Of a DNA stretch of 57,988 nucleotides, positions 45,060 through 50,503 are shown one piece after another. The stretch comes from an uncultured Woeseiaceae bacterium. GTDB taxonomy: Bacteria; Pseudomonadota; Gammaproteobacteria; Steroidobacterales; Woeseiaceae. Under the pieces are notes generated by a model. The model made no database searches. It saw nothing but the letters and a program-made list of their open reading frames with translations, and was not told the DNA's origin. The stretch spans positions 1 to 57,988 of the forward strand of contig CAJJBK010000015.1 of the NCBI GenBank assembly GCA_905182415.1, given 5' to 3'. The position numbers were made by a program, and so were the translations under genes. How positions within the stretch are numbered: position 1 is the stretch's first letter; every line of letters starts with the position of its first letter.

Positions 45060-46316
45060 TTAACCCCATTCTTGAACACGATATAAGACATCGCCACCAG
45101 CACGGAGTCGCCAGCCGGTAATAGGGTTACTGTGATAGGGTATAGAGCCAGCACCTCTGACCTTAATTAAAGTTTCACGAGTTGGCTGAATATAACCAGA
45201 TTCATCTATAGCTCGACTTAGAATAACTGTCTCTTTGCCATTCCAGTTAAATAAATGCCGGAATCGCGTATGTGCTTTTGGTAGAATTGGTTCTTGTAGT
45301 TTTGCAGATTCCCAGGTTTTTCCATTGTCAGTACTAACTTCAGTACCAGTAATAAGACCGCGGCCACTCCAGGCTATTCCTTGTATTTCTATCCAGCCTT
45401 TTTCTATTGTATTAGGATAAGTGGGGTAAGTGATAATTGAGCGTGCATCCATAGACAGACTAAACTGTCTTGCTTTGCCATTCTTGATGGTTTCAGTGTA
45501 TTTTGATGTTTCTTCACGTGTCATGAATGGCTGATCAGAAAACTCAATTCTTCGCAACCATTTAACCGATGAATTTCCTTCATAGCCCGGATTCAAAAGC
45601 CTTATAGGATACCCATTTTCTGGCCTAACAGCTTCTCCATTTTGGGCATAAACGATCATAGATTCGTTCCAGATATCTTTAGGAATACTCCGAGTTAATG
45701 CTGCTGCATCGGATCCTTCAGCTAAAAACCATGTTGCAGATGGCTTTATACCTACTTCTTTTAGAAGGGTTGATAGCATGACACCTGTCCACTCACTTTG
45801 ACTGGTCATACCACAAATATTTTGTGGTGTAGTGTACTCATCAGCTTCTCTGGCTAAATTTCCAGAGCACTCTATAAAGCATATTCGACTGACTGCCGGG
45901 AATCTTTTTAAGTCATTGACTGAAAAAGTCATTGGCCTATCAACTAGACCATGAATAATTAATTTATGTTTTTCTGCGTCGATAAGTGGCACACCAGCAT
46001 GATGACGTTCGAAATGAAGATCAGAGGGGGTAATAGTTCCGTGCAATTGATGGAGTGGCGTTCGAGAGCTAGTCCCTGTATACCTTACATCACGCTCATA
46101 TTTTTCAAATATTGAACGTTTGCCAACTTTAGTGGCCCATTGGCTCGCGGTTACTTTTGATGGATCTTCTGGGGCGTATGGTCGATCTGAAGATACTTGA
46201 ATCTCTTTACCTGAAGCTGATTTTGCAATTATTGTTCCCGCTGCTCCTGCCATACCGACAAGCGCGCTTCGTCGAGTTATATTTAATTTGGATGGTGTAT
46301 TTTCTTTTTTTGTCAT
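45060..46316 (-). CDS. soxC: SoxC-type molybdenum sulfite/sulfane dehydrogenase
   Basis: Molybdenum enzyme of sulfite-oxidase fold, 418 residues. Twin-arginine signal around NITRRSALVG (13-22); the Mo ligand is Cys150 in FIECSGN; substrate-arginine segments GYEGNSSVKWLRR; and a C-terminal dimerisation domain (about 275-400) that MsrP lacks. The conserved LHGTITPSDLHFERHHAGVP (91-110) matches SoxC more than SorA. No other Sox genes (soxXA, soxYZ, soxB) occur here, so the true donor (sulfite or sulfane sulfur) is not known. The cytochrome gene lies 2 bases upstream, so it is probably translated with it. The gene is tandem with msrP. Confidence 0.85.
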   Translation of the reverse strand: MTKKENTPSKLNITRRSALVGMAGAAGTIIAKSASGKEIQVSSDRPYAPEDPSKVTASQWATKVGKRSIFEKYERDVRYTGTSSRTPLHQLHGTITPSDLHFERHHAGVPLIDAEKHKLIIHGLVDRPMTFSVNDLKRFPAVSRICFIECSGNLAREADEYTTPQNICGMTSQSEWTGVMLSTLLKEVGIKPSATWFLAEGSDAAALTRSIPKDIWNESMIVYAQNGEAVRPENGYPIRLLNPGYEGNSSVKWLRRIEFSDQPFMTREETSKYTETIKNGKARQFSLSMDARSIITYPTYPNTIEKGWIEIQGIAWSGRGLITGTEVSTDNGKTWESAKLQEPILPKAHTRFRHLFNWNGKETVILSRAIDESGYIQPTRETLIKVRGAGSIPYHSNPITGWRLRAGGDVLYRVQEWG

Positions 46317-46318
46317 TT

Positions 46319-46918
46319 TTAGTGCACCTCATTATATTCAAGACGATCATCAGGTACGAATTTATCATGCGCAGGCATTACTATTTCCTTTAGTGAACTG
46401 GCTGAAAGCGTTATGTTATCGGGAACAATTTTATTTAAATATAGTAAATATGCTGAGAGAGCATAAACTTCATTGAATGTTAATGAGCCTGGTGCATTCA
46501 TAGGCATGGAGCGTAAGATGTAATCATAAAGTGTGGTTGCATATGGCCAGTAATTACCAATTGTTCTGCACTCAAAACCACATGCGATTATCCCTTGAGG
46601 AAATTCTTCACCCTCATCAGCGACTAGACGACCATTAATGCCTCCTTTGCCGTTGATTCCATGACAAAACGCGCATTTTGCCGCATAGAGTATTTCACCC
46701 TCCTTGACAGAGCCCTTTCCAAGAGGCAGTCCGGTTCCATCCGGCCGAACATCTAAGTCCCATTTTTTTATTTCTTCTGTGGTTGCGGGGCGCCCAAAAT
46801 TAAATAAAACATCTATATTATCGTTAGTATTGATTTCATTTTGCTCTGCATATGATAGGCCGGAGGTAAATAAAGCAAAATAAATCATGATAATTTTTAT
46901 ATATAGATCTAACGTCAT
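46319..46918 (-). CDS. Monoheme cytochrome c, electron acceptor of the SoxC-type enzyme
   Basis: A 199-residue exported cytochrome c. Start chosen at 46918: GGGGA lies just upstream and a normal signal peptide results (hydrophobic stretch 6-18, ending LSYAEQ). An upstream in-frame ATG at 46993 would put 25 charged or polar residues before the signal. The heme site is CAFCH (82-86) and the likely axial Met is Met138 or 140 in RSMPMNAPG. It lies 2 bases upstream of soxC. SoxD in model organisms has two hemes and is longer; this one-heme form resembles the SorB/SoxD partner found beside SoxC-type enzymes in other bacteria. Confidence 0.85.
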   Translation of the reverse strand: MTLDLYIKIIMIYFALFTSGLSYAEQNEINTNDNIDVLFNFGRPATTEEIKKWDLDVRPDGTGLPLGKGSVKEGEILYAAKCAFCHGINGKGGINGRLVADEGEEFPQGIIACGFECRTIGNYWPYATTLYDYILRSMPMNAPGSLTFNEVYALSAYLLYLNKIVPDNITLSASSLKEIVMPAHDKFVPDDRLEYNEVH

Positions 46919-47272
46919 TTTGTCCCCATTTAGATCGCCTTTAGTTCTTTGCGATTGAGGAATGATAATCGCAGGATATTTAATTTCATTCAAGAAAATT
47001 TGTTTTTATAATTTTTAATTATTATTTTTTATATAAAAATTTCATAATAACTTGTAATTCTTTGCTGGTGAGGATAATTTCTGCATTAGAACGTTGATGG
47101 GGACAAATAGATAATAGATTTGCTTAAAGCGACTGGAAGACGGTGTAAGTTCCAGAGCAAATATTATTGAAAATCACCCCGGAGTTATCATCTGAAATGC
47201 AATATGCAAATTAAGTGTGATCGGTTAATCCACGATAAGGATATAATGAGGCGAAAAATAATTTTCGCAAAA

Positions 47273-47309
47273 CCGGGTGGTACCGCGATAAATAGTATTA
47301 TTGCCCCGG
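47273..47309 (+). promoter_or_regulatory. T-box antiterminator helix
   Basis: CCGGG (47273-47277) is the exact complement of CCCGG (47305-47309), enclosing the TGGT bulge that contacts the tRNA end. The second arm is the 5' part of the terminator stem, so the two structures exclude each other, as in transcriptional T-boxes. Confidence 0.88.
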
Positions 47310-47338
47310 ACGTATACTAACGTTCGGGGATTTTTTTT
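47304..47338 (+). terminator. T-box intrinsic terminator upstream of ileS
   Basis: CCCCGGACGT (47304-47313) pairs with ACGTTCGGGG (47320-47329) over ten pairs with one G-T, 6-base loop, then A and eight T (47331-47338). It lies 21 bases before the ileS ATG, so stopping here keeps ileS off. Confidence 0.95.
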
Positions 47339-47359
47339 GGGTAAAAGAAAAGTATAGAA

Positions 47360-50300
47360 ATGAAATTTAAAGAAATTAAAACTAGATATAATGGCCCTGC
47401 TCTTGAAGAAGAGGTCTTAACCTTTTGGGAAAAAAATACTGTTTTTGAAAAAACACTTGAGCAGTCCAATCATCGACCTTTGTATACTTTTAATGAAGGT
47501 CCCCCCACTGCAAATGGAAAACCCGGTATTCACCATGTATTGGCACGTTCTTTCAAAGATGCTTTTCCTAGATACAAAACAATGCAAGGTTTTCATGTGC
47601 CGCGCAAAGCTGGTTGGGACACCCATGGATTACCTGTTGAGCATGAAATCGAAAAGCAACTGGGAATTTTTGATAAGAAAGAAATTGAGTCTAAGGTAGG
47701 TATTGCTGAATTTACCAAACGATGTCGAGAGTCAGTCATGACTTATATCAAAGATTGGGAAAAAATGACCGAAAGAATGGGTTTTTGGGTTAATACTGAA
47801 GATGCTTATTACACACTCGATAATAAATACATTGAGAGTGTATGGCATTTATTAAAAAATATCTGGAATAAGGATCTTATTTATCGTGGCTATAAAGTCG
47901 TCCCCTATGATCCTCGAATAGGCGCAACTTTGTCACAACATGAGCTCGCTCAGGGTTATCGTGACGTTGAAGACCCATCAATTTTTGTTAGATTTGCATT
48001 GAAAGATGAGACTAATACATCATTTCTTGTTTGGACTACTACTCCTTGGACGCTACCTTCAAACTTAATGCTGGCTGTTCATTGTGATGTGGATTATGTC
48101 TATATCAAGATTGAAGATGAAATTTTAATTCTTGCGGAGGAGTTATTAGTCACTGTATTGCAGGATCGTCCATATTCGATTCTTAAACGAGTGAAGGGTA
48201 AAGAGTTGATTGGGAAAGAGTACCTCAGACTCTTTGATTATCTTGATGTGCCAAATGAGGTAAATGCTTTTGAGGTCTATGAGGCTGATTTTGTAAGTAC
48301 AGAAAACGGTACAGGAATTGTCCATTGTGCCCCAGCTTATGGGGTTGATGATCTTGAGTTGGGTCAAAAAAATGGTTTGCCTGTAATACATGGCGTGGGT
48401 CTAGATGGAAATTTTATTAATGAAGTGACTCCAGTTGCGGGATTATTCTTCAAAGATGCCGATGAAATTCTTATAAATTTACTGAAAAAACAGGGCTCTA
48501 TGTTTCGCTCTGAAAAATACTTGCATAGTTACCCTTTTGGGTGGAGAACGGGCGATCCAATTATCTATTATGCAAAACATGCTTGGTACATAAAAACATC
48601 AAAATTCCGTGACCGTATGGTTGAGCTGAACAAAACAATAAATTGGGTCCCAGGACATATTCGCGATGGTCGATTCGGTAAATGGCTGGAAAATAATCAG
48701 GACTGGGCCCTGTCTAGAGAGCGTTTTTGGGGGACACCATTACCAGTATGGACTGATGGCGAAAACAATTATCATTGTGTAGGTTCGGTAGATGAATTAG
48801 CAGAGTTATCGGGTCAGAAATTAACGGAGCTGGACCTTCATCGACCAAGTATTGATGATATAACTTTTAAGAAAGACGGCAAACTATGGACTCGTGTGCC
48901 TGAAGTTATTGATTGCTGGTTTGATTCAGGGGCGATGTCTTTTGCTCAGTATCATTTTCCATTTGAAAATGAGGAGAATTTTGATCAGCGTTTCCCGGTA
49001 GATTTTATTTGTGAGGCTATTGATCAGACGAGAGGTTGGTTCTACACCCTACATGCAATTTCGACTTTAGTTTCTGACAGTGTGGCCTATCGTAATTGCA
49101 TTTGCTTGAGTCATATCGTTGATAAAGACGGTAAAAAAATGTCTAAGTCATTAGGAAATATTATCAATCCTTACGATGTTTTTGATAGTGTTGGCGCAGA
49201 TGCTCTTCGATGGCACTTTTTAGCAAGAATATCTCCAGACATCCAGAAAAGAGTTTCAGTGGAAATAATCTCGGATGTCGCCAGTTCATTCATGAATACA
49301 TTCTGGAATACATATGGCTTTTTTATACTATATGCACGCCTTGATAATATGGATTTAAAAACACCATTGAATATAAAGGACAGACCTGAGACTGATCGTT
49401 GGGTATTGGCTTTATTAAATCAGACAATATCTAAAACTACCGATGCTATGGATAAGTATGATGCAAAGTTGGCCGGTGAAACTATTGAATCCTTTGTTGA
49501 TCAGCTTAGTAATTGGTATATCAGAAGAAATCGACGTCGTTTTTGGAAATCTTCGGATCTTGAAGATAAAAGATCCGCATATCTAACTTTATATCAGTGT
49601 TTAGATGTTATACATCGGTTGATGGCGCCATTCATCCCATTTTTAGCTGAGAATGTTTATCAAAACCTAATTCGTTATAATCAGACTGATGCCCCTATTA
49701 GTGTTCATATGACAACTTGGCCTAAAATAGAATCAGACTGGGAGAACGAAGAGTTATTATTTGAAATTAATGTTGTTCAAAAAGTAGTTGGTTTGGCGCG
49801 GGCAGCCAGAGCTCAATCCGGTGTTCGAGTAAGGCAGCCTCTTCCAAGGTTATTGATTAGGACACCGACTGATTTAACCGCAAAAGCAATACAGAATCAT
49901 CAATCTCAAATTTTAGAAGAATTAAATGTAAAGAAGATCGAGTTTATTGCGCGTGATGCAGGTCTTGTGAGTTATGTGATTAAGCCAAATTTACCTAGAA
50001 TCGGTAAAAAATACGGTAAATTAATACCAGCAATTAAAGAGGCCTTAATTAATTCTGACACGACAGATATAGCAAGCCTTGTTGCAAAAAGACAATCTTT
50101 TGAGGTTCATTGTAACGAGCAAATATTAACGTTTGAGCCAGAAGATGTGTTGATTGAGACAAAATCAGCAGAAGGTTATTCGTGTGGAGAGGAAGGTGGT
50201 TATTTAACTGCTTTGGATACTCGCTTAGATGTTGAATTAATAAAAGAAGGTTTAGCTAGAGAAATTGTCAGATCTGTGCAGGAGGCAAGGAAGAAATCTG

Positions 50301-50503
50301 GCCTAGATGTTTCGGATCGAATTATTCTTGGTGTTAGTGGTTCTGAAATTGTGGAGACGGCTCTAAAAGAGCATCAGGATTTTTTAATGACAGAGACTTT
50401 ATCAGTTCAATGGCAGGTTAATATGGAGGCTCCTCTCTTTTCTGAAGATAATAACCTTGATGATGAGACCTGGTTAATCGAGTTAAAGAAAATTTCGGAA
50501 TGA
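47360..50503 (+). CDS. ileS: Isoleucyl-tRNA synthetase, type 2 (eukaryote-like) IleRS
   Basis: Charges tRNA-Ile. At 1047 residues it is longer than E. coli IleRS (about 938) and starts TRYNGPALEEEVLTFWEKN, then NEGPPTANGKPGIHHVLARS with the HIGH equivalent GIHH (56-59), and KMSKS (593-597). The GIHH form, the C-terminal region lacking the zinc-binding Cys4 of type 1 enzymes and the length fit type 2 IleRS, the class known to resist pseudomonic acid. The CP1 editing domain is at about 190-400 (WTTTPWTLPSN). The gene is alone and preceded by the T-box leader. It may be the only ileS of the genome or a second copy; this cannot be seen here. Confidence 0.95.
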   Translation: MKFKEIKTRYNGPALEEEVLTFWEKNTVFEKTLEQSNHRPLYTFNEGPPTANGKPGIHHVLARSFKDAFPRYKTMQGFHVPRKAGWDTHGLPVEHEIEKQLGIFDKKEIESKVGIAEFTKRCRESVMTYIKDWEKMTERMGFWVNTEDAYYTLDNKYIESVWHLLKNIWNKDLIYRGYKVVPYDPRIGATLSQHELAQGYRDVEDPSIFVRFALKDETNTSFLVWTTTPWTLPSNLMLAVHCDVDYVYIKIEDEILILAEELLVTVLQDRPYSILKRVKGKELIGKEYLRLFDYLDVPNEVNAFEVYEADFVSTENGTGIVHCAPAYGVDDLELGQKNGLPVIHGVGLDGNFINEVTPVAGLFFKDADEILINLLKKQGSMFRSEKYLHSYPFGWRTGDPIIYYAKHAWYIKTSKFRDRMVELNKTINWVPGHIRDGRFGKWLENNQDWALSRERFWGTPLPVWTDGENNYHCVGSVDELAELSGQKLTELDLHRPSIDDITFKKDGKLWTRVPEVIDCWFDSGAMSFAQYHFPFENEENFDQRFPVDFICEAIDQTRGWFYTLHAISTLVSDSVAYRNCICLSHIVDKDGKKMSKSLGNIINPYDVFDSVGADALRWHFLARISPDIQKRVSVEIISDVASSFMNTFWNTYGFFILYARLDNMDLKTPLNIKDRPETDRWVLALLNQTISKTTDAMDKYDAKLAGETIESFVDQLSNWYIRRNRRRFWKSSDLEDKRSAYLTLYQCLDVIHRLMAPFIPFLAENVYQNLIRYNQTDAPISVHMTTWPKIESDWENEELLFEINVVQKVVGLARAARAQSGVRVRQPLPRLLIRTPTDLTAKAIQNHQSQILEELNVKKIEFIARDAGLVSYVIKPNLPRIGKKYGKLIPAIKEALINSDTTDIASLVAKRQSFEVHCNEQILTFEPEDVLIETKSAEGYSCGEEGGYLTALDTRLDVELIKEGLAREIVRSVQEARKKSGLDVSDRIILGVSGSEIVETALKEHQDFLMTETLSVQWQVNMEAPLFSEDNNLDDETWLIELKKISE

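Follow-up and report, generated by a model that had tools for sequence, protein, structure and literature searches.

A T-box leader precedes a type-2 isoleucyl-tRNA synthetase gene in most genomes of the gammaproteobacterial family Woeseiaceae

The window analyzed here (the whole stretch of DNA, 57,988 nucleotides) is the whole of contig 15 in an assembly of 1.82 Mb and 73 contigs that is 99.4% complete, and its genome belongs to the Woeseiaceae (Gammaproteobacteria, Woeseiales). Upstream of a gene for isoleucyl-tRNA synthetase (IleRS), whose ATG is at 47360, lies a leader that matches the Rfam T-box family RF00230 above its gathering score of 93; it is the sole match above any gathering score in an Rfam scan of the window and the only T-box in an Rfam search of all 73 contigs. 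An earlier note on this DNA had claimed a complete T-box before ileS and proposed a covariance search with RF00230, and that search returned a significant match over the full 219-position model. The features of the locus are as follows.

47085..47311, + strand: T-box leader, Rfam RF00230, full model (113.3 bits, E 2.6e-24, model positions 1-219 of 219)
47091..47185, + strand: stem I, five helices, with 85-100% of cells paired across 56 leaders
47128..47132, + strand: AG bulge AGCGA of stem I (AGCGA in 53/56 leaders, AGAGA in 3/56)
47142..47145, + strand: apical GGTG loop of stem I (last three bases GTG in 56/56)
47173..47175, + strand: specifier codon ATC (Ile), complement of anticodon GAU (ATC in 56/56 leaders)
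47188..47220, + strand: stem II, in which the outer pairs covary and the inner part is weak
47222..47242, + strand: stem IIA/B pseudoknot (4/4 pseudoknot pairs changed on both sides, 92.3% of cells paired)
47251..47268, + strand: stem III (7/7 pairs changed on both sides, 87.2% of cells paired)
47274..47308, + strand: T-box sequence and antiterminator helix, from the Rfam alignment, covariation (helices 10 and 11) and folding
47304..47338, + strand: intrinsic terminator, stem 47304-47329 (10 pairs) and T8 47331-47338, exclusive with the antiterminator
47360..50503, + strand: ileS2, type-2 isoleucyl-tRNA synthetase, 1047 aa, with a DUF5915 C-terminal domain
47525..47536, + strand: codons for the swapped class I signature motif GIHH

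The leader runs in the order stem I, stem II, stem IIA/B pseudoknot, stem III, CGGGTGGTACCGCG and terminator, with the T-box core CGGGTGGTACCGCGA at 47274-47288 and its TGGT at 47278-47281 (from the sequence and the Rfam alignment). Its T8 ends 21 bases before ileS, and the AUC specifier matches the amino acid of that gene. The AG bulge is the partner of the stem I apical loop, whose role is contact with the tRNA elbow. The AUC specifier, AG bulge, apical GGTG, stem III and T-box with TGGT that the earlier note had described were all located in the sequence or the Rfam alignment, as was its exclusive terminator, a 10-pair stem followed by eight T; this anatomy was right, yet it was silent on stem II, the stem IIA/B pseudoknot and the type-2 nature of ileS, all of which are present. 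A sequence scan of the + strand from 46850 to 47450 found no sigma-70-like promoter.

Base pairing was counted over an alignment of 56 leaders from 56 genomes, 55 from the family and one from outside (G529), which are part of the 90 leaders found (89 in the family plus G529), namely those fetched as loci, with L064 and L076 left out as second copies of a genome already represented and G081 left out because it has stem I only. Counted over the Rfam base pairs and the pseudoknot together, pairing holds in 88.3% of 2851 cells (78.4% in shuffles), 37 of the 51 pairs have changed on both sides (27.0 in shuffles), and such changes occupy 358 cells (125.7 in shuffles). The covariation score of 0.379 exceeds that of shuffles (0.195) and that of every slid register (0.115 at most), although the structure derives from fitting the first row to Rfam, a choice that favors it over slid versions. 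The terminator is paired in 97.3% of 554 cells, and both it and the antiterminator are kept despite the columns (383-387) that they have in common. Stem II has 63% of its cells paired overall, with one pair that is never formed and a lower part that pairs poorly. The specifier is invariant, all 56 aligned leaders carry the T-box core CGGGTGGTACC, and 50 of the 56 have at least five T within ten bases past the terminator stem. Four family leaders (L038, L041, L046, L068) contain palindromic repeats inside the terminator hairpin; we take the palindromic repeats in these leaders to be REPIN-like.

The terminator of the window folds at -18.1 kcal/mol, and none of 200 shuffles is as good; the antiterminator folds at -13.1 kcal/mol, a signal that is weak on its own because 11 of 200 shuffles equal it. 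When the region of the two is folded jointly, the terminator form wins, in keeping with a switch whose default state is off and which tRNA turns on by holding the alternative form. For the leader as a whole the folding energy is -68.5, matched by 1 of 200 shuffles, and its minimum-energy fold fails to reproduce all T-box stems. By every feature examined here, the leader is a genuine, canonical, full-length transcriptional T-box, with switching predicted from its architecture.

The product of the downstream gene matches the IleRS model TIGR00392 at 943 bits. Its best match among solved structures is 8c8w_A (the GVHH mutant of P. megaterium IleRS2) at 900.6 bits; P. megaterium IleRS2 chains score 888-901 bits against 360-368 for the IleRS1 of that species (8c9f_A, 368.4), the identity of the 8c8w and 8c9f chains as PmIleRS2 and PmIleRS1 being that given in the data statement of PMC10485003. 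By sequence, then, the enzyme is a type-2 IleRS, closer to IleRS2 than to IleRS1. In its class I motif GIHH replaces HXGH, and GIHH recurs in 39 of the 39 order rows that include the N-terminus (40 such rows in total, with some genomes present twice) and also in G545 and G565. The type-2 enzymes with a G/AXHH motif treated in PMC10485003 share with the window the GIHH-for-HXGH exchange, the DUF5915 tail and the best match to 8c8w, and differ from it in that here the enzyme is the only recognized IleRS of a gammaproteobacterial genome and its resistance is predicted. Natural G/AXHH IleRS have a millimolar Ki for mupirocin according to that paper, and the GIHH motif therefore leads us to predict that Woeseiaceae IleRS2 is hyper-resistant to mupirocin. 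Its scores for MupA and MupB, 838 and 818 bits, fall below the NCBIfam exception cutoff of 1900. A profile search of the window's own genome gave a single ileS match over the cutoff, along with nine further ileS-model matches below it that are presumably other class I synthetases.

A leader of this anatomy would work as follows. Uncharged tRNA-Ile (GAU) would bind the AUC of the specifier loop through its anticodon, dock its elbow on the platform of AG bulge and apical loop, and engage the UGGU of the antiterminator bulge with its free ACCA end. This would hold the antiterminator, some of whose bases also belong to the terminator, and RNA polymerase would read into ileS. Charged tRNA would be unable to hold the antiterminator, and transcription would stop at the T-run.

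A tRNA-Ile GAU gene was found in 1 of the 13 family genomes searched, the genus mate G005; it has A73, its 3' end ACCA fits UGGU, and its GAU fits AUC. In G005 this gene lies between 16S and 23S rRNA, beside tRNA-Ala TGC. Neither tRNA-Ile GAU nor tRNA-Ala TGC is among the 26 tRNA matches in the window's own assembly, and since the two lie together among rRNA genes in G005, unassembled rRNA operons may explain their absence there. That explanation does not extend to the single-contig genome G013, in which a search with the E. coli gene gave no match to tRNA-Ile GAU; a search miss or divergence is possible in this case. All 13 genomes gave matches in the tRNA search, and ARAGORN read the 19 readable loci as 12 Met, 6 Val and 1 Ile; L129 yielded no tRNA, and four further matches came without a locus. 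Locus L079 (1501-1577) holds a CAT-anticodon tRNA, assigned to Met by ARAGORN, whose A73 could meet UGGU and whose anticodon misfits AUC; it may be a tRNA-Ile2.

The host is gammaproteobacterial, as the earlier note had argued from the chromosome: NCBIfam confirmed dsbD, aroQ, accB, accC, prmA, dusB, purH, purD and rho (9 of the 9 proteins tried), and IleS is 75-98% identical to six named Woeseiaceae records. Gene content and these close relatives uphold the host against the alternative, raised in the same note, that the contig is not gammaproteobacterial. The comparison with related genomes that it had suggested shows a T-box shared across the Woeseiaceae: among relatives, 33 of 60 genomes have one (33 of 37 in the Woeseiaceae and 0 of 23 in other families), and across the family it is found in 89 of 107 genomes, in 43 of the 45 good ones and in 12 of 12 genera, with a single T-box in each genome. 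Family matches were counted at E 0.001, and only 16 of the 107 genomes exceed the gathering score; 88 of the 89 matches span the full model, and the remaining one, in G081, is stem I only. At the level of the order, 78 matches occur among 296 genomes, 77 in the Woeseiaceae and one outside, in G529, whose own family has a T-box in 1 of 22 genomes. The class yields 2 of 369 genomes, both Woeseiaceae, and the phylum 2 of 398, the window's own genome and one weak match before aspS; these two scans scored 5-6 candidates per genome with filters that are stricter above 40 genomes, and weak T-boxes may escape them. The earlier note had called a T-box unexpected here, which holds in that T-boxes are nearly absent elsewhere in the sampled genomes; yet, far from being isolated, the leader characterizes the family as a whole.

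Among the matches listed, and counted as minimum values from loci of limited length, msrP and msrQ stand near ileS2 in 13 of the 13 loci read, which cover all 12 genera, and folE does so in at least 6 of the 13 and in the window. Between msrP and the T-box, the window also carries a soxC-like sulfite dehydrogenase gene and a cytochrome c gene (45060-46993), which among the matches listed recur in the genus mate G007 and in none of 12 other loci. The usual place of ileS in Gammaproteobacteria is between ribF and lspA. In 11 of the 11 family genomes with an lspA match, lspA comes straight after ribF, leaving no space for an ileS; the lspA search covered 12 family genomes and G529, with no match in G015 and G529, and ribF was identified by eye in the 11 lspA loci and L059, with NCBIfam confirming ribF in L181 and L182 and lspA in L181. 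The best reading of this arrangement is that the T-box/ileS2 unit displaced a native ileS1, leaving the ribF-lspA site empty.

Eighteen family genomes have no T-box match. Upstream DNA was fetched for eight of them and was readable in seven (the contig of G075 ends 17 bases upstream of ileS2); of the other ten, three have no IleS match and seven have only gene-internal or fragment matches. Inspection by eye and with Rfam showed decayed remnants in three of the seven readable genomes and none in four: G092 and G086 retain the stem I base together with the T-box/terminator and have lost the middle with its specifier, G031 keeps only fragments of the leader, and upstream of ileS2 in G107, G096, G121 and G087 there is no leader trace. 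In G081, stem I and the specifier are kept and the rest is replaced by a palindromic repeat. The leader can thus be lost, and on the evidence of these genomes it is dispensable within the Woeseiaceae, where several secondary losses have apparently taken place. In the G081 locus (L201, from about 430), two palindromic repeat copies close together replace the 3' half of the T-box, and the decayed T-boxes of G092, G086 and G031 (L193, L195, L200), with their internal deletions or insertions, constitute natural deletion variants.

When the window protein was searched against 396 genomes of the order, 369 matched at E <= 1e-30. Among the matches listed, IleS2 at 59-68% identity occurs in two other families, f6 (G529, G545, G565, G586) and f10 (G1087), a more distant IleS at 36-42% identity occurs in G056 and G043 (f8), and the remaining genomes outside the Woeseiaceae have an IleRS of about 30-33% identity. 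The f6 genomes differ at the locus: G545 has ribF-ileS2-lspA, the usual ileS site within the order, without a T-box, G565 has ribF-ileS2 without a T-box, and G529 has ribF-T-box-ileS2; the sequences of G586 and G1087 lack the gene start. The G529 leader scores 54.6 bits, below the gathering score, has no T-run past the usual terminator place, and in stem I averages 68% identity to the family leaders and 57% to a clostridial leader. In a tree of 37 rows, the f6/f10 clade (98/99) is sister to the Woeseiaceae (98/91), with a joint node at 100/100. The simplest history consistent with these sequences would give the common ancestor of the two clades a single T-box/ileS2 unit, which one clade would have at the ribF site and the other at a different place, with the leader lost in G545 and G565; transfer between the f6/f10 clade and the Woeseiaceae may be an alternative. 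The f8 IleS groups in the tree with the enzyme of pTML1 (G056 + pTML1 100/100, with G043 left out; loci L185, L186, L188). The plasmid pTML1, which we take to be the thiomarinol plasmid, comes from Pseudoalteromonas sp. SANK 73390, a gammaproteobacterium from sea water, and encodes a related IleRS that is 38.7% identical to that of the window and falls in a separate clade.

We consider it highly probable (roughly 0.92) that an isoleucine T-box controls the only recognized IleRS of this genome, that the leader came in together with ileS2 before the Woeseiaceae diversified, that this unit took the place of the native ileS1, and that inheritance was vertical from then on, with the leader lost secondarily several times. 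Horizontal transfer together with the downstream gene, the explanation favored in the earlier note, gains support from the type-2 gene, the T-box/ileS2 pairs of two Bacillota and the empty ribF-lspA site, and because the T-box is a trait of the whole family, the transfer would be ancient and inheritance vertical since. That the pair exists in Bacillota follows from Acetoanaerobium noterae (139.7 bits; GIHH) and Paenibacillus cellulosilyticus (107.5 bits; HIGH motif), both of which have a T-box before ileS2; none was found before ileS2 of pTML1, Rhodococcus or Parabacteroides (Rfam, E up to 1). Five of the 250 matching plasmid records were examined for a T-box, which was found in two.

Several candidate donors were considered and rejected. 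IleS2 proteins of Cloacimonadota, Zixiibacteriota, Latescibacterota and a further bacterium are 39-43% identical and come without a T-box (Rfam, E up to 5; L028 has fewer than 390 bases upstream, and the Leptospirales locus L031 lacks the gene start), and the plasmid IleS relatives reach at most 43.5% identity among the best 30 of 250, none attaining 60%. The sampled IleS2 outgroups are distant, at most 44% identity, and none is convincing as a donor. Long outgroup branches mark the IleS2 tree (37 rows); with outgroups so distant, we therefore name no donor and treat even the direction of transfer as provisional.

Three other accounts of the locus were weighed against ancient import. Contamination of the assembly or bin by a Gram-positive contig has the rarity of T-boxes in Pseudomonadota as its sole point, and we reject it as having a negligible probability, given that the same leader and neighborhood recur in 12 genera, including the single-contig 4.06 Mb genome G013, and that the 58 kb contig bearing the leader is proteobacterial in its gene content. 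One might also suppose that the leader came with the gene and is here a relic, non-functional or merely a constitutive attenuator, and the 7 of 7 readable no-match genomes in which it is decayed or absent, its absence in G545 and G565 of another family, and the palindrome in place of its 3' part in G081 fit such a view. Against this stand the covariation that stems I, III and IIA/B and the terminator show across the 56 leaders, the invariance of specifier and T-box core, and the presence of the leader in nearly all good family genomes; neutral decay would not preserve two competing structures, and we judge a relic very improbable.

The T-box/ileS2 pair could, finally, be an ancient proteobacterial possession that the Woeseiaceae and a few relatives kept and other lineages lost, with no transfer at all. 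A sister IleS2 clade in other families of the order, one member of which has its T-box next to ribF, is what such retention would leave; but nearly all genomes of other families in the order, among the matches listed, have the distant IleRS, the class scan found a T-box in 0 of 367 genomes outside the Woeseiaceae, and type 1 is the general proteobacterial IleRS according to PMC4861432, which together make this history hardly credible. Ancient import of the unit accordingly keeps its place as the preferred reading.

The Bacillota class I ileS T-boxes (RF00230) have the same anatomy in the same order as the Woeseiaceae leader, and the ileS2 leader of A. noterae has a specifier context, GAAAATCACC, identical to that of the window; the host here, by contrast, is gammaproteobacterial, and stem I averages 58-59% identity to two Bacillota leaders. 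T-boxes outside Gram-positives have a precedent in the leuA leaders of Geobacter sulfurreducens and Pelobacter carbinolicus, Gram-negatives then placed in the Proteobacteria (PMC2494555), which agrees with the mention of deltaproteobacterial T-boxes on leu genes in the earlier note; those leaders control leuA, whereas the present one precedes an aminoacyl-tRNA synthetase gene, in another class and family-wide. A Xanthomonas SAM-I riboswitch that senses uncharged tRNA-fMet is a further tRNA-sensing leader in a Gram-negative (PMC7270179), one that is not a T-box and has, according to that paper, no sequence or structural similarity to it. The same paper describes T-boxes as "restricted to Gram-positive bacteria," and PMC3766115 names Firmicutes, Actinobacteria, Chloroflexi, Thermus/Deinococcus and Geobacter as T-box hosts. 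A literature search over titles and the starts of abstracts, with subscription papers, TBDB and RefSeq annotation outside its scope, found no paper on a gammaproteobacterial T-box, and the leader may be annotated without comment in TBDB or RefSeq. What is new is the lineage, the family-wide spread and the replacement of synthetase and regulator as a pair; the T-box itself is known.

A complete T-box thus stands on an essential gene in most genomes of one gammaproteobacterial family, and three questions become open to experiment: whether the RNA polymerase and tRNAs of a gammaproteobacterium can operate a T-box, by what route a synthetase is replaced jointly with its regulator, and why lineages lose the switch, given that a single family contains leaders that are intact, decayed or missing. 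A bolder conjecture, which we regard as possible if rather doubtful, is that T-box/ileS2 is a self-contained traveling module that in the Woeseiaceae has fully supplanted the native enzyme and now serves as an inducible, built-in defense against pseudomonic-acid-type inhibitors from neighboring bacteria. If that were true, the module would combine a hyper-resistant synthetase with an RNA sensor of uncharged tRNA-Ile and need no host regulatory protein, and its repeated loss and stepwise decay would show the conditions for keeping a tRNA switch outside Gram-positives.

The weak match from the phylum scan (L137 1501-1811, G869:C1:126905-127215; L187 2906-3216) stands immediately ahead of aspS (732 bits), and the 0.9 Mb genome that carries it belongs to a different class of Pseudomonadota; the match scores 26.1 bits, with E 2.9e-4 for the genome and E 0.063 in a separate locus scan. 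Its stem I is short or missing, and the stretch past the tRNA gene at this locus folds no better than shuffles (z -0.52). Downstream of that tRNA gene lie the core AGGGTGGCACCGCG and a helix resembling an antiterminator; tRNA-Asp, with its G73, would be a fit for UGGC, and the aspS leader is possibly a second, independent proteobacterial T-box.
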